Source: Rhodobacter sp. NTK016B (GTDB lineage: Bacteria > Pseudomonadota > Alphaproteobacteria > Rhodobacterales > Rhodobacteraceae). From it: DNA of 64,000 bases. The stretch is taken from NCBI RefSeq assembly GCF_017303295.1, contig NZ_JAFKOK010000013.1:62001-126000 (forward strand), given 5' to 3'. The notes below the pieces were generated by a model that saw only the letters and a list, made by a program, of their open reading frames with translations, ran no database searches and was not told the DNA's origin. Each line of letters starts with the position of its first letter. Positions within the stretch are counted from its first letter, which is position 1. Made by a program: the position numbers and the translations under genes. Positions 10,149-20,292 of the stretch are shown here, one piece after another.

Positions 10149-11696
10149 ATGAAACTATACATTATCGCCCCGCTTCCCGATTTCGGCCACAAGGCCGGCG
10201 CGTCCTCGCGGTTGCTCAATATCGACGAGGCCTACGCGCTGAATGCTTCGGCCGGGATCACCACGGTTGCGGCGCTGCTGGATGACGACTTAGAAATCCG
10301 CCTGTGCGACGAGATGATCGAACCCGTCGATTTCGACGACCCGTCCGACATCGTGGCGATCAGCATAAACGTGGCTCAGGCCGCGCGCGGGATCAGCATC
10401 GCCCGGCGCTTTCGGGAGATGGGGCGGACGGTCATCGTCGGCGGCCCGCATGTTTCCCTGTCGCCCGAAACCTTCACCGACGAGGCGGATTGCCTTGTGA
10501 TCGGCGAATTCGAGACCGTCGCGGAGCAATTCTGCGCGGATCTGAAGGCGGGCGCGCTGAAACCACGCTATCGGTGCGGTCAGGCGGATATGGCGATGAC
10601 GCCGATGCCGCGCTGGGATCTCTATCCCAACGACCGGGCGCTGACCGGCGTCATCCAGACCAGCCGGGGCTGCCCCTTCGAATGCAATTTCTGCGATGTG
10701 ATCCAGTATCTGGGCCGTATCCAGCGCCACAAGCCCGTTGAACGGGTTTTGGCCGAAGCGCAGTTTCTCTATGATCTGGGTTATCGTTCGGTCAATCTGT
10801 CGGATGACAATTTCACCGTCAATCGCCGCAAATCGCGCGCCATGCTGGAAGCTCTGGCCGCCTGGAACGGGCGCGAGGGACGCGCGCCGGTCGAATTCGC
10901 CACGCAATGCTCGATCGACCTCGCACGTGACGCGGACCTGATCGAACTATGCCGTCAGGCGGGGCTGCGCGAGGTCTTCATCGGCATCGAGACCAGCAAC
11001 GAAGAGGCGCTGAAGGAAGCCCAGAAGCGCCAGAACCTGCGTCAGAATCTGGTCGAGACGATCAGCCGGGTCGTCTCGGGCGGACTGGTGGTGTCGGGGG
11101 GCATGATGGTCGGGTTCGACAGCGACGATCTGAGCTGTTTCGAGCGCCAGTTCGAATTCGGCATGTCCCTGCCGATCGTCAATATGCGACCCAGCGTGCT
11201 GGTCGCGCCGGTCGCAACCCCGCTGTACACCCGGATGCAGGCCGAAGGGCGGCTTGTCGTCGATCCGGAGACCATCTTCCCGGGCAGCGGTATCTCGACG
11301 AATTTCATTCCCGCCCAGATGACACGCGAGGAGCTGACCGAAGGGGCGCTGTGGCTGACCGAGGCGCTTTACGCGCCCGACAACGCCATCGTCCGTTTCG
11401 AGCATATGGCCCGTCTTCTGGCGCCGGCGCCCGCCCATCTGACGCGCGAATCCGAGACGCTGACACCCAGCAAGGGCGCCTCGGGCGTGTTGAAGCTGAT
11501 CCGCAAAAGCGCGCGCAACCCCGGCGCACGGCGGGTGATCGACGCCGTCAACGACCTCGCCCATCAGCGTCCGGAAATCGCCCGCGACCTGTCCACGGCG
11601 CTCGTCAACTATCTCAACACCTACAGCGGGCATTCTGGCTTTGCGGATCCCGGCGTGACCAGCGCCCTGCCCCAGCACTACGCGGCAACCGCCTGA
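10149..11696 (+). CDS. B12-binding-domain radical SAM protein (DUF4070 type)
   Basis: Protein of 515 residues. The N-terminal part (about 1-140) has a cobalamin-binding Rossmann fold (VAISINVAQAARGISIARRF, TVIVGGPHVSLSPE). The radical SAM core carries the cluster motif C175-P-F-E-C179-N-F-C182 after TSRGC. The late part (GGMMVGFDSDD, then VLVAPVATPLYTRMQAEGR) matches the C-terminal domain common in B12 radical SAM enzymes annotated DUF4070. Such enzymes methylate unreactive carbons or rearrange lipids and natural products. A TTG start at 10128 would add seven residues; ATG 10149 gives the expected beta-strand start MKLYIIAPLP. First gene of a six-gene cluster; its chemistry is unknown, with C-methylation or cyclisation of the acyl chain as plausible guesses. 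Confidence 0.88.
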   Translation: MKLYIIAPLPDFGHKAGASSRLLNIDEAYALNASAGITTVAALLDDDLEIRLCDEMIEPVDFDDPSDIVAISINVAQAARGISIARRFREMGRTVIVGGPHVSLSPETFTDEADCLVIGEFETVAEQFCADLKAGALKPRYRCGQADMAMTPMPRWDLYPNDRALTGVIQTSRGCPFECNFCDVIQYLGRIQRHKPVERVLAEAQFLYDLGYRSVNLSDDNFTVNRRKSRAMLEALAAWNGREGRAPVEFATQCSIDLARDADLIELCRQAGLREVFIGIETSNEEALKEAQKRQNLRQNLVETISRVVSGGLVVSGGMMVGFDSDDLSCFERQFEFGMSLPIVNMRPSVLVAPVATPLYTRMQAEGRLVVDPETIFPGSGISTNFIPAQMTREELTEGALWLTEALYAPDNAIVRFEHMARLLAPAPAHLTRESETLTPSKGASGVLKLIRKSARNPGARRVIDAVNDLAHQRPEIARDLSTALVNYLNTYSGHSGFADPGVTSALPQHYAATA

Positions 11697-11746
11697 ATTG
11701 CAGAGCAAGCTTGTAATCGGCACGGAAGCCCAGAGAGTCGAAGACC

Positions 11747-13396
11747 ATGAATGATGCAACGCTGCATCCCGATCTGATCGCCGCTATTGCCGACCGACGG
11801 GCGGAGCCGATGTTGACGATCCTCGGCAAGCGTGGACAGTATACCAGCCTGACGGGAGAAGAGCTTCTTGCGCGCACGCAGGCGATGCAAGCGGTTTGGG
11901 ATCGCTGTCTGGGCCCCGGACCGCAGGTCTTGCTGACCGCGCTTCCGGCGGGCGAGGATTTTCTGATCGCGCTGGTGACGGCCTTGCTGGGCGGGGGCAC
12001 CATGGTGCCCGTGGCCCCGCCTCGCGTCGGCGACACGCCCGGGCGGCTGGCGCGCATGGCCCGCACCTGCGACGCCAGTGCCGTATTGTGTACGACTCGC
12101 AACCGCGACGCTGTGGTGCAGCAGCTTATCGATGACGCGGGGGGGCTGCCCTGCCCGGTTCTGGCGCTCGACGCGCCCGAACCCGATGCCACCGCGCTGG
12201 CCCGCGCGCCGCGCCCGGTCAGCAGCCACCCCATCATCCAGCACACATCGGGCTCGACCCGGTTTCCCAAGGCGGTGCCTGTGACCGCCGATCAGATCCG
12301 CGCCAATTGCGCGATGATCCAGTCGCTCTGGGGGATGAACCGCGACACCGTCATGGTCAATTGGCTCCCGCATTATCACGACATGGGGCTGATGGGCTGC
12401 ATCCTGTACCCGCTTCTGTCGCATGCGCATTCGGTGCAGATGAGCCCGTTCGACATGATCCGCCGTCCGTTGTCTTGGCTTGAGGCCGTGTCGCAATGGC
12501 GCGGCACGATTAGCGGCGGCCCGACATTTGCCTTCCTTGAATGCCTCAACCGGATCGATGCCGAAGCCGCGCAAGGGCTGGACCTGAGCTCGTGGCAGCG
12601 CGCCTTTTGCGGGGCCGAGCCGATCCCGGCGGGCCTTTTGCAGCGGTTCAGCGACCGCTTCGCACCGCAGGGTCTGGCGCCCGAGGCGGTGTTCGGCTGC
12701 TACGGCATGGCGGAATGCACGCTCTTTGCCGCGGGCGAAGCGCAAGCGGCAGGCAACGCCGCCCCGGCGCCCACAGACGCACTGGTCGAAGGCTGCCTGT
12801 TGAGCGACACGACCCGCGCGGGCCTGCGCATCGCCGATCCCGCAGGCGGCTGGCCGCGCCCCGAAGGCTTCACGGGCGAGATCTGGCTGACGGGGCCGTC
12901 GGTCATCCACGCCTATCTGGGCGAGGACGACCCCGAGGCCTTCGCCACCGATCCAGAGGGCCGGCACTGGCTGCGGACCGGGGATCTGGGCCATATCGCA
13001 GAGGGGCGGCTGTTCATCACCGGGCGCCTCAAGGACATCGTCATCGTCAATGGCCGCAACATCGCTGCGGCCGAGATCGAATGGATCGCCGCGCAAGAGC
13101 ATGACGACCTGAACCCACTGGCCGCCGCCGCTTTTGCCGATACGCAGACGGCGGGCGGCAAGGCGCATCTGTGTATCGAGATCCGCGCAGGCGCCCCCGC
13201 CCCCGCCGATCCCGAGGCACTGGCCAAGCGCATCCGCGCCTCGGTCATCGGTCGCTGTGGGGCCGAACTGGGCGAGATCCGCATCCTGCCGCGCGGCACG
13301 CTGCCGCGCACCACCAGCGGCAAGATCCGCCGCCGTCAGGTTGCGCAGGAATTCCTGTCCCCGGCGCACCCCGCAACCTTGGAAATGGTGAAATGA
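11747..13396 (+). CDS. Fatty-acyl-AMP ligase (FAAL-type adenylate-forming enzyme)
   Basis: Adenylating enzyme of 549 residues that should activate a fatty acid with ATP and hand the acyl group to a carrier protein. Seen: P-loop-like HTSGSTRFPKAVPVT, the FAAL-typical VNWLPHYHDMGLMGCIL, FCGAEPIPAGLLQRF, the A5-like YGMAECTLF, the GEIWLTGPSV motif, WLRTGDLG, GRLKDIVIVNGRNIAAAEIEW, and the catalytic-lysine region LPRTTSGKIRRRQVAQEF. The WLPHYHDMG block and NGRN in place of the acyl-CoA synthetase pattern favour FAAL over a CoA ligase. The stop overlaps the next start as ATGA. With an ACP gene in the same operon, ACP loading is the natural role; chain length is unknown. Confidence 0.88.
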   Translation: MNDATLHPDLIAAIADRRAEPMLTILGKRGQYTSLTGEELLARTQAMQAVWDRCLGPGPQVLLTALPAGEDFLIALVTALLGGGTMVPVAPPRVGDTPGRLARMARTCDASAVLCTTRNRDAVVQQLIDDAGGLPCPVLALDAPEPDATALARAPRPVSSHPIIQHTSGSTRFPKAVPVTADQIRANCAMIQSLWGMNRDTVMVNWLPHYHDMGLMGCILYPLLSHAHSVQMSPFDMIRRPLSWLEAVSQWRGTISGGPTFAFLECLNRIDAEAAQGLDLSSWQRAFCGAEPIPAGLLQRFSDRFAPQGLAPEAVFGCYGMAECTLFAAGEAQAAGNAAPAPTDALVEGCLLSDTTRAGLRIADPAGGWPRPEGFTGEIWLTGPSVIHAYLGEDDPEAFATDPEGRHWLRTGDLGHIAEGRLFITGRLKDIVIVNGRNIAAAEIEWIAAQEHDDLNPLAAAAFADTQTAGGKAHLCIEIRAGAPAPADPEALAKRIRASVIGRCGAELGEIRILPRGTLPRTTSGKIRRRQVAQEFLSPAHPATLEMVK

Positions 13397-15552
13397 GCCA
13401 TCACGTCTGGTCCGATCGCACAGCGTTCATTCGTGAACCGCAAGCGGCGGCCGAGGTGCTGCGCGTTCTGGATATTCCGCGCCTCGACACCTATCACAAC
13501 GCCGTGGCGCAGGCCACGGGCGTCGATCTGAGCGCTCTTCAGCGCCTGACGCGCAACACGCTGATGGAAATGCCGCCCGAGGATCATCTGAAAGTCCGCC
13601 GCGTGATCGCGCCGTTCTTCAGCCGGGCGGGAATGGCGGGCTGGCGTGATCTGGTCCGCCACGCCTCCGAAGAGGTGGCGGAAAGCCTCGAGGCCATCGA
13701 CGAGCCGGACCTCGTGCGCGACTATTGCGTCCCGCTTTTCCTGCGCACGATCCCCGAGATCATCGGCCTCGACCTGCCGCAAGAGACCGCGTATTTCGAC
13801 GCCGTCGTGACCGCACAGCGACTGACCGAGCCATATCTTTCCGTCTCGGCGCTGAAATCGCTCAACGCGGCTGTCGCGCTTCTGGCCGATTGCTTCACCC
13901 AGCCGCGCGACGACGATCCCGAGGGGCGCCCGAAAACCCTGCGCGCCTACCTGCATGAGCGGCAGGCCGATCTGCCCGACAGGCTTGACCCCGATTTCTT
14001 CGTGCTGGGGATGCTGGTGGGCTCGAATACCATCACGCAATCGCTGGCCTTTGCCTGTCACGGCCTGCTGAGCGGCCCGCCCGAAGACTGGGCCGCCGCC
14101 GCCATTCCCGGCTCGGCGCAGATCGCGCCACAGCGGTTGCTCGGGCTCTACCAATCGACGCGCACGCTGGTGCGCGTCGCCCCCTCGCCCGTCGAGGCGG
14201 GGGGATGCCCCTATTCTGCGGGCGAGACGGCGGTGGTGGATATCGTTGACGCGAATACCTGCCTGCGCGCGCAGACCGGCAATCCGACGGCGCATATGAG
14301 CTTCGGCAGCGGCGCGCATAAATGTCCCGGCGCGTTTCTGAGCGAGACCATCCTCGACATCGCGATCCCGGTCCTTGCCCGCCGCTATCCCGACATGATC
14401 CTCGAGCCCGAACGCTGCCGCTTCGTCCAGACGCCGATGATGCAGGCGCCCATCGCAATGCCCTGCACGCTGCGGCAGGACTCGCGCCGCAAATCAGCGC
14501 GGCTTTGCGACATCCGCGACCTGCCTTCGGCCGGGCAGGTCCTGCGCGACGACGCGACCTTCGCCCCGCCGCCCATGGAAAGCCACCTCAGGGTTCTGGC
14601 GCAAGAAAGCGGACAGGATTTCGACACCGCCGTGCTGGTCGCGCGCAACGCCATGTTCTTTATGGAAGGGCCGCGCCACACGGCCCTGCGCGCGGCGTTG
14701 GCGCGGGATTTCGACGCGGCAATGCTGGCGGAATGGGCACCCCGGATCGACACCGCGATTGACCAAGCGCTCGACGGTCTTGTGCAGGCCAAGAAGCCCG
14801 ACCTTGTCGCCGGGTTCTCCGAGCCGCTGCGCCTGAACGGCGTGGCGCCGGTTCTGGGCGTTCACAGCCCCGACCGCGCGCGTTTCGACGCGGTGGCGCC
14901 GGGCCTGCAGGAAGTGCTGGAGCCCTGGCTGTCGATGCGCCACCTGACGCGGGTGCAGGCCTGTTTCGCCGAAGCGCTGAGCCTGATGCAGGACCCCGCA
15001 CCGAATGAAACGCCGCGCTCGTTGCTGGCCGCGCTTCTGGCCAATCCGCCCGAAGACTTCAGCCCGGACGACCTGCGCGCCGTGGTGCTGGTGCTCTATG
15101 GCGCCAGCTTCAACCTGTCGCATACGCTGGCCAATATCGTCCTGTGGATCCTCTCGCGCCCGGCTGAAGAGCGCCAGAATGCCCGCGACCCGGCATGGAT
15201 TGACGACAATCTCGAAGCGCTGATCGCCCGTTATAGCGGCCCGAAATACATCTACCGTCAAGCGCGCGCGGATCGGCGCGTCGGCGATCTGCACCTGCGC
15301 ATGGGCGATACCGCGCGGCTGGCGGTGCATGCGCTCAACCGGGGCTGTCCGGCAGGCGCCGGGCATCTGTCCTTCGGCAAAGGGCTGCATCGCTGCGTCG
15401 GTGCCCGCCTGTCGCGCGAAATCATTCGCAAGGCCATTCCCGCCCTGTTCACCCGGTTCCCCGGACTGGCACCGCTTGCACAGGCGCACCGTTATCACGC
15501 CATGTCGCAAACCGTGGCGCTAAGCACGCTCCCCTGTGCATTAACCTCCTGA
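13393..15552 (+). CDS. Tandem cytochrome P450: two P450 domains fused in one protein
   Basis: One frame of 719 residues encodes two successive cytochrome P450 domains. Domain 1 (about 1-360): C-helix MPPEDHLKVRR (residues 60-70), I-helix region FFVLGMLVGSNTITQS, haem loop MSFGSGAHKCPGAF with Cys311. Domain 2 (about 365-719): C-helix GPRHTALRAAL, I-helix LVLYGASFNLSHTLAN (G570), haem loop LSFGKGLHRCVGARL with Cys668. Each domain is about 355 residues, short for bacterial P450s. The near-universal K-helix ExxR motif is missing: residues 240-262 of domain 1 contain no Glu, and domain 2 has only E608 with Arg five residues later. The usual I-helix acid/Thr pair is also altered. ATGA overlap with the FAAL gene fixes the start; an ACP gene follows. 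Likely oxidises the ACP-bound acyl chain, possibly with unusual chemistry. Confidence 0.88.
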   Translation: MSHHVWSDRTAFIREPQAAAEVLRVLDIPRLDTYHNAVAQATGVDLSALQRLTRNTLMEMPPEDHLKVRRVIAPFFSRAGMAGWRDLVRHASEEVAESLEAIDEPDLVRDYCVPLFLRTIPEIIGLDLPQETAYFDAVVTAQRLTEPYLSVSALKSLNAAVALLADCFTQPRDDDPEGRPKTLRAYLHERQADLPDRLDPDFFVLGMLVGSNTITQSLAFACHGLLSGPPEDWAAAAIPGSAQIAPQRLLGLYQSTRTLVRVAPSPVEAGGCPYSAGETAVVDIVDANTCLRAQTGNPTAHMSFGSGAHKCPGAFLSETILDIAIPVLARRYPDMILEPERCRFVQTPMMQAPIAMPCTLRQDSRRKSARLCDIRDLPSAGQVLRDDATFAPPPMESHLRVLAQESGQDFDTAVLVARNAMFFMEGPRHTALRAALARDFDAAMLAEWAPRIDTAIDQALDGLVQAKKPDLVAGFSEPLRLNGVAPVLGVHSPDRARFDAVAPGLQEVLEPWLSMRHLTRVQACFAEALSLMQDPAPNETPRSLLAALLANPPEDFSPDDLRAVVLVLYGASFNLSHTLANIVLWILSRPAEERQNARDPAWIDDNLEALIARYSGPKYIYRQARADRRVGDLHLRMGDTARLAVHALNRGCPAGAGHLSFGKGLHRCVGARLSREIIRKAIPALFTRFPGLAPLAQAHRYHAMSQTVALSTLPCALTS

Positions 15553-15565
15553 AGGAGTTCACAAA

Positions 15566-15835
15566 ATGTCTGCCGTCGTTGACAAGAATGCCCTGATCGA
15601 CAGCGAATTGTTCCAGTTTCTGCGCGCGCAGGTCGTCAAGCGCAGCCGCATTCCGGCAGAGAGCGTCACACCCGACGCCGCTCTCTCGGATCTGGGTCTG
15701 CAGTCGATCGACGCGGTGCTGCTCTGCGGCGAGGTCGAAAGCAAGTTCGACGTCGAAATCGACCCGATCGAGATTTTCGAACACGAGACCGTCGGCGACT
15801 TCGTGCAAACTTTGCTTGATCGCATTGGTACCTGA
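15566..15835 (+). CDS. Acyl carrier protein
   Basis: Small carrier protein of 89 residues. The helix-loop-helix core holds the phosphopantetheine site DLGLQSIDA with Ser47, followed by the acidic recognition helix (DAVLLCGEVESKFDVEI) and a last helix (TVGDFVQTLLDRIG). It is more divergent than housekeeping AcpP (LQSID instead of the DSLD form), as expected for a pathway-specific carrier. A very strong AAGGAG site overlaps an inverted repeat CTCCTGAAGGAG at the P450 stop, so its translation may be coupled to the upstream gene. Its stop overlaps the carbamoyltransferase start (TGATG). Expected partner of the fatty-acyl-AMP ligase upstream. Confidence 0.93.
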   Translation: MSAVVDKNALIDSELFQFLRAQVVKRSRIPAESVTPDAALSDLGLQSIDAVLLCGEVESKFDVEIDPIEIFEHETVGDFVQTLLDRIGT

Positions 15836-17526
15836 TGGCGCTCTTCCACCTTGGCCTGTCGACATCGGGGCATGATCCTGCCCTCGCGCTGGTTTCGGAG
15901 ACCGGCGAAATCCTGTTCGCCGAAGCGACCGAGCGCTTCGTGCAGGACAAGCGCGCATGGGGTGTGGTGCCCGATCATTTCAACCACCTTGCCAGTGCGC
16001 TGAAGATGGTGGGCTTCGATGTCGCCCGCGACCGCCTGCGCGTCGCGACGACATGGAGCCGCGCCAAGGCCGATCTGCCGGTGCAGATGTCGGGTGAATT
16101 GCTCGACATCGCCGATGCGAACTGGGTGCGCGAATTGCAGGCAGACATGCACCGCATGGCGGGGGCCTCGCTGATGCGGCTTGGTCTGACGACCGAGATG
16201 CCCGAGGCGCGGCGCTTCGATCACCATCTGTGCCATGCCGTCGCCGCCTGCGCCTTTGCCCCGGTCGAGGATGCCGCCTGCCTTGTCATCGATGGCGAAG
16301 GCGAGGTCGGCGCCGTCTCGCTGTTCGACCTGCGCGCGCGCAGCCTCAAGCGGCGCTGGCGCTCTTGGGGGCCGGGCAGCCTTGGCGCGCTTTATAGCGC
16401 GCTGACGCAGCTTTGCGGGTTCGACTGGCGTCAGGGCGAGGAATGGAAGGTCATGGGCCTTGCCGCGTTCGGCACCGTGCGGCCCGAACTGCGCGATGCG
16501 CTCGCGGCGATTCTGGAGGTCGATAACGGGCGCCTGCTTCTTGCCGATCACGCCACGATCACCGCAATGATCGCGCGGCTTCGGCAGGCATCGCGCGCGC
16601 CGTCGGCGCCGATCATGGACGCCGCTGATCTGGCCGCCAGCGGACAGGCCGCTTACGCGCAGCTGGTCGACCGGATGCTCGCCGATTGCACCGACAAGGA
16701 TGTGGACACACTGATCCTGTCGGGCGGCTGCGCGCTTAACTCGTCCTATAACGGCACCATTGCCGGGCGCTCGGGCTTCGACCGGCTGTGTGTCCCCCCC
16801 GCCCCTGCCGATGACGGCAACGCCATCGGCGCGGCGCTGTTGAGCTACATGGAAACCGCGGGCACGACCCGCATCCCGCAGGGCGACGGATCGCCGTATC
16901 TGGGGACGCCCGTCGATGCGAACCGCGTGGGCAAGCTGCACCACGCGCAACGCAGCGCGCATGTCACCGATCTGGGCGCGGACAGTGCAGAGCGTCTTGC
17001 GGCCTGTCTGGCCGAGGGCAAGATCGTCGGTGTGATGCGCGGACGGGCCGAATTCGGCCCTCGTGCGCTTGGGAACCGCTCGATCCTTGCCGATCCGCGT
17101 CCGGCGGGGATGAAGGACCGCGTCAACGCGGCGGTGAAAGGGCGCGAGCCGTACCGCCCCTTCGCCCCGGTCATCTGCGCCGAGGACCTGCCCGACTGGT
17201 TCGAGACGCCGCAAAGCTCGCCCTACATGTCGCTCACCCTGCGCTGGCGCGCGGAACGGGCGGCGCAGGTGCCGGCGGTGGTGCATGCGGACGGCACCGG
17301 GCGGCTGCAAAGCGTCACGCCCGACAGCACGCCATGGCTGCACCGGGTGGTGCGCAGCTTCGGTGCGCAGACTGGCGTGCCGGTGATCCTGAACACCAGT
17401 TTCAACGTGATGGGCAAGCCGATCATCCACTCGGTCGAAGACGCATTGTCGGTCTTCATGACCACGGGTCTGGACGCGGTGCTCATCGAAGACACGCTGA
17501 TCGAAAAAACCACGCCCGCCGCCTGA
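15835..17526 (+). CDS. NodU/CmcH-family O-carbamoyltransferase
   Basis: Enzyme of 563 residues that transfers a carbamoyl group from carbamoyl phosphate (via carbamoyl-AMP) to a hydroxyl of the pathway product. The N-terminal Kae1-like domain shows LGLSTSGHDPALALV, FDHHLCHAVAACAF (metal-binding His130/131 and His134), VIDGEGEVGAVSLF, GEEWKVMGLAAFG, LILSGGCALNSSYNG and PADDGNAIGAAL. The C-terminal carbamoyltransferase domain shows RAEFGPRALGNRSILADPR and VILNTSFNVMGKPIIHS. Start overlaps the ACP stop by one base. Members modify nodulation factors, cephamycin, novobiocin and similar compounds; here the acceptor could be a hydroxyl placed by the tandem P450. The family call is very safe. Confidence 0.93.
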   Translation: MALFHLGLSTSGHDPALALVSETGEILFAEATERFVQDKRAWGVVPDHFNHLASALKMVGFDVARDRLRVATTWSRAKADLPVQMSGELLDIADANWVRELQADMHRMAGASLMRLGLTTEMPEARRFDHHLCHAVAACAFAPVEDAACLVIDGEGEVGAVSLFDLRARSLKRRWRSWGPGSLGALYSALTQLCGFDWRQGEEWKVMGLAAFGTVRPELRDALAAILEVDNGRLLLADHATITAMIARLRQASRAPSAPIMDAADLAASGQAAYAQLVDRMLADCTDKDVDTLILSGGCALNSSYNGTIAGRSGFDRLCVPPAPADDGNAIGAALLSYMETAGTTRIPQGDGSPYLGTPVDANRVGKLHHAQRSAHVTDLGADSAERLAACLAEGKIVGVMRGRAEFGPRALGNRSILADPRPAGMKDRVNAAVKGREPYRPFAPVICAEDLPDWFETPQSSPYMSLTLRWRAERAAQVPAVVHADGTGRLQSVTPDSTPWLHRVVRSFGAQTGVPVILNTSFNVMGKPIIHSVEDALSVFMTTGLDAVLIEDTLIEKTTPAA

Positions 17527-17577
17527 ACTCTCTTTCGGCCAGCCGGCACGACCGCGCACACATACCGAGACCCCGCC

Positions 17578-20292
17578 ATGATGACGGATCGCCCGTTTCC
17601 AATGCAACTGCCCGATGCCACACTGCCCCCGGCTCTACGGCGGCAGGAGATCTTCGCCACCCTGAGCGCGCTTGAATCACGCAAGGACTTCACCACCGCC
17701 CTGGCTTTTGCCGAGGACGCGTTGGACGCGTTCCCAAACGATCCGAAACTGATCATGCGCCGCGCGGGCATTCTTCGCCAGCTCGGACAGCTTGATGAAA
17801 GCGTGGCGCAGCTTCAGCAATTGGTGAAAGCGCGCCCCGACGATCTGTCTGCCAAGCATGAGCTTTCGGTCGCGCTGCGCTTTGCGGGGGCGCATGAACA
17901 AAGCCTCGCACAGAGCGATGAGATCCTGCAAGCTAACCCGACGCACCGCGCTGCGCTGTTTGCTCGCATCTACACCCATCTTCATGCTCAGGACTTTCCC
18001 GCCGCGATCAAGGCCGCCCGCGATCTGCGCGTCCGCCTGCCCGATGACGGCGAAGGGCTGCTCCGTCACGCGCGCGCGCTGAGGCTGGCGGGCCAGCCCG
18101 AGGCGGCCCGCGACGAGATTGACGGCGCGCTGATCGGCGGGCGGCGGCTTGAGATGACCGCCGATACCGACAGGCGGCTGCGGCTGGAACTCGCGCGGGC
18201 GCTGCTCGACGCGCAGGACATCCGCCGGTCCGACAAGGTGCTGGCCGATCTGCTGCGTGATTTCCCGGATGAGCGCGACGTGGTGATGCAGGGGCTGGCA
18301 CAGGCGCGGGCTGCGCTGAACCACAATGCGGCGTTCGATCTGTGCGAGCGTGGCTTGCGTCAATGGCCAAGCGAGACACGGTTCGCGCGCGAGAAGGTCG
18401 CGGCGCTGCTTGCGATGGGCAATCTGGTCACGGCGCAAGAGGCGCTCGACACCCTGGCGTTGCCCGATGCCGACCTGCGTATCCGGCTGCTCATCGAACT
18501 GCGACGCTTCGATGAGGCGCGCGAACGGGTCCGGGCGCTGCCAGACAAACAGGCGCTCGAGCGCGACCGGTTCGAGGCAAAGATCCTGCAGGCCGAAGAA
18601 CGGACCGAAGCCGCCTTCGCCCTGCTCGACAGGCGCTACAAGAAGCGACAGACGCCCGAGCTTGCGCCGCTGCTGATGGGGCTGTTGTCCAATCTGCAGC
18701 GACCCGATGAGGCACAGAGCTTTGCCGAATGCCTGCCCGCCAGCGTCAGCCAAACCCCCGCCATGATCTTCGCACGGGCCGATATCCTGCGCCTGAAGGG
18801 CGACGTCGATGCTTGGAGTGCGATGATCGTACGGGCAGCCAAGGACGGCATGCGCGTCCTTCCGGTGGTCCGGCGGCTGGTATCAACCGCCGTGCAATGG
18901 GGGATCGGAACGCCCCATTTCCATCGCATCATAGCCCGGCTTGACGGGCTTCTCGCCGACCTAGCCCCCCGCCTTCCCGACACGACCCTTACCCTGCTCA
19001 GACTGAACCGCGCCTTCGGGCTTGGCGACTGGGACACGGTGCTGGCGCTGTCCGGTCAGGCCTGCATCACGGCCCCGCGCGATCTGACACTGGCAGCGAT
19101 GCGGGCCCGGGCGCTTGCCGAGACCGGCGATCTAGACGGCGCGGTCGCGGTTTGCGATCAGATACTCGCACAAGCCCCGACGATGAGCGCGGTCATCGAG
19201 TTGCGGCTGGCGCTTCATCTTGCCCAAAGGGATGCGCCGGCGGGCGCGGCGTTTCTGTCGGCCAAGCTGATGCGCGATGAACTGGCGCTGACCTTGCGGC
19301 TTGCCCAACACCTGCAATTCACCGGGCAAACCGATATCCTGCGCTCGGTCGTTGCCCGGCAGATCGCCCGCGCCGGCGATGACACGCCCCGCTGGCTTCG
19401 CTCGCTGAGCGACGTTTTCGAAGGCACCGACACCGCCGGACCGCCCGGGTTCCAGACCTATCCGGTCTACGAGCCGCTGTCGCCCGAGGACGCGGCGGCG
19501 CTGATGGATCCCGCGTCGGGCAATCTGGCAGGCTCCGATCTGTTTCTGGCCGAGGCAGCGACCCTCTGGCGGCTTCAGAACAAGCCCGAGGCGCTGCGAC
19601 ACAGCTGGATGCGACAGGCCCTGCGCGCGACACATGCCTCCCGCACGGTCGCGACCCGCTCGACAGCACCCGAATCGCTCGTGCCTTATCGCACGTCGGA
19701 CGCTTTCAGCACGTTGAAAGAGCGCCTCGACAACCGCGAGCCCTGCCTGCTGGCCAGTACGCATTTCGGCCCGCACAACCGGCTCACGGTGGCACCTGAA
19801 CTGAGCAATCTCACCTACCTGATGCAGGACGGACCGCGTCATCCCGAGCTGGAAAAGCAGTATTCCTTGATCCGGGCCGTCGAGTCCAATCCCGCAGCCC
19901 AGATCATCAAGGCCCTGCGGGCAAGACAAAGCCTGATTGCGACCCCGGACTTCCCCGCCGAGATGCGCTGGAAAGCCGAGTTCCGCTCGGATGCGACGGC
20001 CCTGCTGTTCGGGCTTCCCTGCCAGTTGATCGACACAATTCCCAAACTGGCCCATGCCATGCACTATCCGGTTTTCTGGATCCAGCAGGCCTTTCGCAAC
20101 AACGAAATCGTCGTGGAGGTCCGCCGCATGTCGGACCCCGAACCCGATGAGCCGCTCGCGGCCTATCAGGAAAGGTGGGCGCAGGAATACCTCGATCTTC
20201 TGGCCGAGATCATGACGTCAGATCCGCGAAACCAGAACCTCTACGCACCGCTCACACGTTTCCTGGCCGCCCGTGGCGGCGCAGCAAACTGA
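17578..20292 (+). CDS. TPR-repeat protein with C-terminal LpxL/HtrB-like acyltransferase-type domain
   Basis: Large protein of 904 residues. About the first 560 residues are helical repeats of TPR type (e.g. LAFAEDALDAFPNDPKLIMRRAGILRQLG split over several units). The last 250 residues resemble lipid A acyltransferases: LASTHFGPHNRL (His729) in place of the HX4D/E motif, YLMQDGPRHPELEKQYSLIRAVES, a strand with LIATPDFPAE, LLFGLPCQLIDTIPKLAH and PVFWIQQAF, and a final helix with YLDLLAEIMTSDPRNQNLYAPL. The acidic residue after the catalytic His is Asn734, so activity is uncertain. No signal peptide is seen. As last gene of the cluster (51 bp after the carbamoyltransferase), it may transfer the finished acyl chain from ACP to a lipid or glycan. 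The acyltransferase assignment is moderate. Confidence 0.65.
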   Translation: MMTDRPFPMQLPDATLPPALRRQEIFATLSALESRKDFTTALAFAEDALDAFPNDPKLIMRRAGILRQLGQLDESVAQLQQLVKARPDDLSAKHELSVALRFAGAHEQSLAQSDEILQANPTHRAALFARIYTHLHAQDFPAAIKAARDLRVRLPDDGEGLLRHARALRLAGQPEAARDEIDGALIGGRRLEMTADTDRRLRLELARALLDAQDIRRSDKVLADLLRDFPDERDVVMQGLAQARAALNHNAAFDLCERGLRQWPSETRFAREKVAALLAMGNLVTAQEALDTLALPDADLRIRLLIELRRFDEARERVRALPDKQALERDRFEAKILQAEERTEAAFALLDRRYKKRQTPELAPLLMGLLSNLQRPDEAQSFAECLPASVSQTPAMIFARADILRLKGDVDAWSAMIVRAAKDGMRVLPVVRRLVSTAVQWGIGTPHFHRIIARLDGLLADLAPRLPDTTLTLLRLNRAFGLGDWDTVLALSGQACITAPRDLTLAAMRARALAETGDLDGAVAVCDQILAQAPTMSAVIELRLALHLAQRDAPAGAAFLSAKLMRDELALTLRLAQHLQFTGQTDILRSVVARQIARAGDDTPRWLRSLSDVFEGTDTAGPPGFQTYPVYEPLSPEDAAALMDPASGNLAGSDLFLAEAATLWRLQNKPEALRHSWMRQALRATHASRTVATRSTAPESLVPYRTSDAFSTLKERLDNREPCLLASTHFGPHNRLTVAPELSNLTYLMQDGPRHPELEKQYSLIRAVESNPAAQIIKALRARQSLIATPDFPAEMRWKAEFRSDATALLFGLPCQLIDTIPKLAHAMHYPVFWIQQAFRNNEIVVEVRRMSDPEPDEPLAAYQERWAQEYLDLLAEIMTSDPRNQNLYAPLTRFLAARGGAAN

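Follow-up and report, generated by a model that had tools for sequence, protein, structure and literature searches.

The conserved unit of the gene cluster analysed here is a four-gene core encoding a fatty acyl-AMP ligase (FAAL), a cytochrome P450, an acyl carrier protein (ACP) and a NodU-type carbamoyltransferase, which recurs in distant groups of bacteria together with one of three alternative transfer modules. The cluster was found in a stretch of 64,000 nucleotides from Rhodobacter sp. NTK016B, hereafter referred to as the window, in a genome of 4.84 Mb. The gene sets probably constitute carrier-protein acyl-tailoring cassettes with a swappable transfer module, which would serve a Dlt-like acylation of the cell envelope.

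Organisation of the cluster in the window

According to the list of open reading frames, positions 10149-20292 of the window hold six consecutive genes on the + strand, assigned as follows.

10149..11696, + strand: B12-binding-type radical SAM enzyme with a DUF4070 C-terminal part, accessory (Pfam, cysteine motif)
11747..13396, + strand: FAAL-family adenylating enzyme (Pfam AMP-binding, NCBIfam, solved relatives)
13393..15552, + strand: tandem P450 of 719 aa with two short domains, A and B (Pfam, motifs)
15566..15835, + strand: ACP (Pfam PP-binding, Ser in GLQSID)
15835..17526, + strand: NodU/GdmN/TobZ-type carbamoyltransferase (Pfam; GdmN is the best solved relative)
17578..20292, + strand: TPR protein with a putative C-terminal LpxL-like acyltransferase domain (profile search, hhalign)

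The intergenic spacings, from the radical SAM gene to the TPR gene, are 50, -4, 13, -1 and 51 bases, which bears out the overlaps and gaps described in an earlier note on this DNA; its remark that the six genes include no polyketide synthase (PKS) or non-ribosomal peptide synthetase (NRPS) also holds. The preceding gene lies 339 bases upstream, and a convergent gene begins 18 bases downstream. A search for a sigma-70 promoter in the gap to the left of the cluster found none. Deviant GC content was considered as a sign of horizontal acquisition and rejected, the values in 1500-base segments being 0.61-0.68 for the cluster vs 0.64-0.70 elsewhere in the first 30 kb.

Distribution and conservation of the core

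A scan of a genome collection for the carbamoyltransferase confirmed 168 relatives, of which the best 80 were analysed for FAAL and P450 genes located upstream within 6 kb on the same strand. Among these 80, both genes are present at all 15 loci with a carbamoyltransferase of at least 50% identity; of the 65 with lower identity, none has both and four have one of the two. An ACP gene was detected by tblastn at 14 of the 15 close loci, and the fifteenth (L022) has a diverged ACP that is readable by eye. The 15 close loci, two plasmid loci (L103 and L104), a further locus in the window's own genome (L101) and the window itself make up the set of 19 cassettes discussed below, in which ACP is present throughout and FAAL in 18 (absent from L101).

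The hosts of the 15 close loci are alphaproteobacterial (Pararhodobacter, Tateyamaria, Aurantimonas, Methylorubrum, Sphingopyxis, Brevundimonas, Breoghania and Phycocomes), gammaproteobacterial (Pseudomonas twice, Stutzerimonas, Hahella and Marinomonas) and members of the Bacteroidota (Roseivirga and Galbibacter), and the L103 and L104 cassettes reside on two Rhodobacterales plasmids. Conservation of the core order in three distant bacterial groups indicates a recurrence beyond chance. The earlier note had regarded the six genes as a unit; the co-occurrence search found all six together in three of the 19 cassettes, namely the window, Pararhodobacter marinus (L021, with the TPR gene in two frames) and Breoghania (in two opposed operons), and the six genes are therefore not the unit. 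The ACP-centred acyl pathway that it had proposed, with FAAL, P450 and carbamoyltransferase, is supported; the LpxL-type module is one of three alternatives.

Phylogenetic trees of the last P450, the FAAL and the carbamoyltransferase were compared over 18 loci (15 splits). The P450 and FAAL trees share 11 of the 15 splits, the P450 and carbamoyltransferase trees 8 and the FAAL and carbamoyltransferase trees 6, as against a mean of 0.3 shared splits and maxima of 3-4 when the labels of the same trees were shuffled. This concordance suggests that the core has mostly been inherited or moved as one, with the FAAL-carbamoyltransferase pair the least concordant.

Within its groups the module is sparsely distributed. 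At an E-value of 1e-40 the tandem P450 occurs in four of 394 genomes of the window's family, its own genome included. The other three (L105-L107) carry ACP and carbamoyltransferase genes beside the P450, and two of them also a FAAL; the third is a short, frame-broken contig piece. As their transfer modules lie beyond the fetched pieces, these three are kept outside the 19, and one of them may be the species of a cassette already counted. The tandem P450 was found in one of 398 genomes of a phylum-level sample (the window's own), in one of 349 genomes of the Galbibacter family and one of 48 of the Marinomonas family, in both cases the query genome. A search of plasmids with the Hahella P450 gave no match.

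The additional locus in the window's genome (L101; G000:C13:8000-27999, positions 10522-15934) is a second cassette, devoid of FAAL, with genes for a Cys-thioesterase-like protein, a tandem P450, an ACP and a carbamoyltransferase; it is perhaps served in trans by the FAAL of the window. Several other features of the neighbourhoods were recorded. IS21 genes lie immediately upstream of the L103 cassette (plasmid pSC52_1, 5972-21582), and defence or toxin-antitoxin-like neighbours occur at L022 (12650-17761, a SIR2/TPR protein) and L025 (4691-5659, a HEPN/nucleotidyltransferase protein). An open reading frame of 1703 aa in L022, considered as a PKS/NRPS partner, proved to be the SIR2/TPR protein. 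Within 10 kb of the cassettes, L023, L061 and L092 share an ABC-ATPase family (two ABC_tran matches in L023 and L092).

Activating enzyme, carrier protein and carbamoyltransferase

The FAAL of the window matches the Pfam AMP-binding family with 146.9 bits and is the only close copy in its genome (1250.8 bits for itself, 71.5 for the next match). In NCBIfam, where no model reaches its cut-off, an NRPS/PKS model ranks at the top and is followed mostly by fatty acyl-AMP ligases, with CoA ligases lower. The best solved relatives include the FAALs 7r7f and 3kxw, 3pbk ('Fatty Acyl-Adenylate Ligase') and FadD proteins. Judged by its sequence, the enzyme is nearer to FAALs than to acyl-CoA ligases. 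The region following GMAE, presumably the FAAL-specific insertion, is about 15 residues short in comparison with 7r7f and is short in the 18 aligned sequences, so that CoA ligation is possible. In Pseudomonas mangiferae (L027, 6664-9720) FAAL and P450 lie in one frame of 1019 codons, joined by a linker rich in Pro/Arg/Gln, and represent a possible FAAL-P450 fusion; L028 was considered as another such fusion and rejected, the two lying there in different frames.

The ACP of the window (Pfam PP-binding, 52.3 bits) carries the phosphopantetheine Ser in the motif GLQSID, and this residue is kept in all 18 aligned ACPs as well as in the diverged ACP of L022. The carbamoyltransferase matches Carbam_trans_C with 221 and Carbam_trans_N with 102.5 bits in Pfam; among solved structures GdmN is its best relative, with the novobiocin carbamoyltransferase and others, then TobZ. 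The N-terminal GHD and HHxxH motifs are found in all 19 cassette carbamoyltransferases.

Radical SAM enzyme

The first protein of the window cluster matches Radical_SAM (60.8 bits) and DUF4070 (34.5 bits) in Pfam, scores 31.4 bits for B12-binding, just below the cut-off of 32.1, and has its radical SAM cysteines in the motif CPFECNFC. A place for this gene in the core was rejected, as it is present in only 8 of the 19 cassettes, and the enzyme is accessory. When 11 other cassette genomes were searched whole at an E-value of 1e-20, eight gave no match and two have one beside the cassette; Roseivirga has only relatives of 30-34% identity, located away from it.

Transfer modules

Mapping of the neighbouring protein families assigned to each of the 19 cassettes one kind of transfer module and never a second: an MBOAT and SGNH-like pair in 11 (L025-L033, L092 and L103), a Cys-thioesterase-like protein in five (L022, L023, L024, L101 and L104) and a TPR-LpxL-like protein in three (the window, L021 and L061). 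A search of the window with the cassette proteins found no MBOAT, SGNH-like or thioesterase-like module.

A profile of the cassette MBOATs has DltB as its sole match among solved structures (E 2e-35). The eight of the 11 that were scanned with the DltB model score 100.4-123.9 bits, below the equivalog level (cut-off 375), and the Pfam MBOAT family passes its cut-off in one of three scanned (L030; L103 scores 17.9 of 27 and L029 has no match). In each of the 11 a Tyr lies among the nine C-terminal residues and follows F, Y or V at a distance of two positions; in six of them a motif F-x-Y-x-x-F/L reaches the C-terminal end. As described in the accessible text of PMC12148441, a hexapeptide of this sort is the acyl shuttle in PatA and DltX, and other MBOAT/SGNH pathways work without a carrier protein. 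All 11 partner proteins have the motifs G-x-S and W-x-D-x-x-H. They gave no credible match in Pfam, NCBIfam or the solved structures (their profile has 0 matches among the latter), and the designation SGNH-like follows from motif and gene position.

Directly downstream of the L103 cassette lies a second, non-cassette MBOAT/SGNH pair, the MBOAT of which scores 131.9 bits to the DltB model and ends in FIYFQF. Since this protein matches DltB as well as the cassette MBOATs do, such features mark the MBOAT/SGNH class and not the use of a carrier; similarity to DltB was accordingly discarded as proof of carrier use, to which the FAAL and ACP genes point instead.

The Galbibacter and Marinomonas cassettes are located among genes for sugar-nucleotide dehydrogenases, epimerases, UDP-GlcNAc 2-epimerase and glycosyltransferases; Galbibacter has in addition genes for sulfate activation beside the cassette and a weak match of the Wzx type (26.1 of 28.2 bits). 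A polysaccharide context is thus seen in 2 of the 10 MBOAT cassettes with sampled flanks (L028 left out): in L025, L026, L027, L029, L030, L033 and L092 the one or two flanking genes scanned include no polysaccharide-synthesis gene, and the plasmid annotation shows none for L103.

The thioesterase-like proteins have a Cys in a G-x-C-Q-G block in five of five and a C-terminal His in four, L024 lacking it; their similarity to thioesterases is weak (E 0.021 in Pfam, 7e-5 for the best solved chain).

The TPR-LpxL-like module is rare, the only strong match in 149 genomes of the family being that of the window itself (727.4 bits), with two others at 25.9 and 27.8 bits. In P. marinus (L021, 11752-14450) the gene occupies two reading frames, owing to either a sequencing error or decay. 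Lipid A acyltransferases use acyl-ACP, and VexE is linked to the attachment of lipid to the Vi capsule. A profile built from the TPR protein and its relatives, five sequences in all, retrieves 5knk, a solved lipid A acyltransferase, at an E-value of 1.9e-4 (whole; 0.0011 for the domain), its alignment by hhalign to LpxL-type proteins of related genomes has a probability of 86.6, and beside the TPRs there is a match to VexE at residues 820-890 (37.9 bits, far under the cut-off of 1200). These similarities would suit a modified membrane lipid as the product of the window, the protein acylating lipid A, a glycolipid or an aminolipid. The last 324 residues of the window protein have no Pfam match, Lip_A_acyltrans included, and in the HX4D/E motif the His is present in five of five family members and the acid in none, which counts against a membrane lipid and leaves it a possible product that we think less probable than the Dlt-like acylation proposed above. 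Possibly the domain is an acyltransferase that has been altered and is still active. The earlier note's idea that the acyl group is passed to a lipid or glycan is now a better-founded guess.

Unusual P450 domains

The tandem P450 of the window reaches 32.2 bits in Pfam, above the cut-off of 22.8, with the haem cysteine in FGSGAHKCPG and FGKGLHRCVG in domains A and B, respectively, and an intact ExxR motif in neither. Among the 19 cassettes the P450 is a fused A-B protein in 10, encoded by two genes in three, fused with a degenerate domain A in one and single in five. A comparison was made of 31 domains from 18 loci selected by the haem loop FxxGxHxCxG, without the L022 P450, whose loop reads FGGGRHLCSA, or domain A of L024, which has no haem loop. 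Only one of the 31 (L025 domain A) has a complete ExxR, the Arg being present in 8 and the Glu in 2, and the D/E of the I-helix motif is found in none. The aligned control P450s retain ExxR in all 15 rows (13 distinct P450s) and the I-helix acid in 11 of the 15, two of the 13 distinct proteins being without it. At L024 (7969-9747, Methylorubrum rhodinum) the haem-binding loop is lost from domain A and retained in domain B. Two adjoining P450 genes of ordinary length in the window's genome (G000:C6:61483-63185; L004, L008) keep ExxR and lack the I-helix acid.

From these motifs, the cassette P450s are in all likelihood haem-thiolate proteins, possibly with unusual catalysis. The scarcity of both motifs and the L024 domain without a haem loop could also mean that the domains are not oxygenases at all, being haem-binding scaffolds or O2-independent enzymes (isomerase, dehydratase or peroxygenase), and that the carbamoylated group comes from the fatty acid itself. 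We regard this as unlikely: the haem cysteine motif is intact in 31 of 31 domains, though these were chosen by that motif, absence of the I-helix acid is shared by two of the 13 distinct control P450s, and the accessible text of PMC3599690 describes CYP157 as a P450 family likewise without ExxR. The earlier note had the chain oxidised by the fused P450s; the P450 is there, and as the motifs of an ordinary hydroxylase are missing, the oxidation is something we infer.

Proposed pathway

From gene content, conservation, motifs and locus context we infer all of the reactions, their order, the substrate and the acceptor in the model of Dlt-like envelope acylation. The FAAL would adenylate a carboxylic acid and load it onto the cassette ACP, the P450 domains would alter the ACP-bound chain and the NodU-type enzyme would carbamoylate a hydroxyl (or amine) of the bound chain; in 8 of the 19 cassettes the B12-type radical SAM enzyme would make an extra change, probably C-methylation. 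In the 11 cassettes with an MBOAT/SGNH-like pair, the acyl group would be carried across the membrane via the C-terminal Tyr to a surface polysaccharide, by a Tyr-mediated transfer as in Dlt and PatAB. In five, the Cys-thioesterase-like protein would move it from ACP to the acceptor, and in the window its delivery, to either a lipid or a glycan, would take place on the cytoplasmic side by means of the TPR-LpxL-like protein. We further propose, tentatively and with a little less than even confidence, that, next to D-alanylation, the cassettes represent a second class of envelope acylation that depends on a carrier protein. In this class a fatty acid would be carried by FAAL and ACP and decorated by the carbamoyltransferase and by P450s without ExxR, and exchange of the transfer enzyme in the course of evolution would change the acceptor.

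That the product is instead a small metabolite, secreted or kept inside the cell, which acts as a signal or inhibitor and is only released by the terminal proteins (an oxidised fatty acid bearing a carbamoyl group, or an ester or amide of it), would agree with the conserved Cys of the thioesterase-like protein in five cassettes, the FAAL-ACP-P450 sets generally typical of natural-product clusters, the patchy occurrence (4/394, 1/349 and 1/48 family genomes), the copies on two plasmids and the ABC-ATPase family common to the 10-kb flanks of L023, L061 and L092, and is quite unlikely in view of the MBOAT/SGNH-like pair and its Tyr tail at the end of 11 of the 19 cassettes, which fits acylation of a polymer, the two cassettes among polysaccharide genes and the absence of an exporter gene within the cassettes (flanks sampled only).

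In keeping with the earlier note, which knew of no matching pathway, a literature search whose scope left most subscription papers and preprints outside turned up no characterised pathway with, and no report of, this gene set or its product, and none of the literature naming both 'fatty acyl-AMP ligase' and 'carbamoyltransferase' is titled on such a system. If envelope acylation by the cassettes is correct, several bacterial groups would use a Dlt-like route to attach complex acyl groups, oxidised and carbamoylated, to surface molecules, tying tailoring of the natural-product style to envelope modification, and the P450s would provide a family in which to test what ExxR and the acid of the I-helix do. 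The cassettes would also be an exception to the MBOAT/SGNH pathways without a carrier protein treated in the accessible text of PMC12148441.

Comparison with known systems

The C-terminal domain of the window's TPR protein is related to 5knk and thereby to the LpxL-type acyltransferases, from which it differs in the missing acid of HX4D/E and the lack of a Pfam match; its layout of TPR and acyltransferase parts is like that of VexE, although the score is far below the VexE cut-off. The cassette carbamoyltransferase belongs to the family of NodU, GdmN and TobZ and conserves the N-terminal His and HHxxH, but reaches 163.1 bits vs the NodU equivalog cut-off of 1000, and its substrate, unlike theirs, is presumably ACP-bound. 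With the natural products made by FAAL-ACP systems (jamaicamide, polyyne and cylindrocyclophane) the cassettes share the loading of a fatty acid and its modification on a discrete ACP; however, the six window genes include no desaturase, halogenase, PKS or NRPS, and the cassette core is built on a carbamoyltransferase and a P450.

A close parallel is the Dlt system (DltA-DltC-DltB/DltX-DltD), in which an adenylating enzyme likewise loads a carrier protein and which shares with 11 of the 19 cassettes an MBOAT with a Tyr shuttle tail and an SGNH-like partner. The cassettes have a FAAL instead of a D-Ala ligase, insert a P450 and a carbamoyltransferase between loading and transfer and carry the Tyr tail on the MBOAT itself, and that of the window differs further in having no MBOAT. 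PatA/PatB-type O-acetylation has in common with the cassettes an MBOAT with a C-terminal tail like F-x-Y-x-x-F and an SGNH protein, but according to the accessible text of PMC12148441 it draws on acyl-CoA and has no carrier protein, whereas the cassettes have FAAL and ACP genes. Carrier-based acylation is already known, and what would be new here is the tailoring on the carrier.
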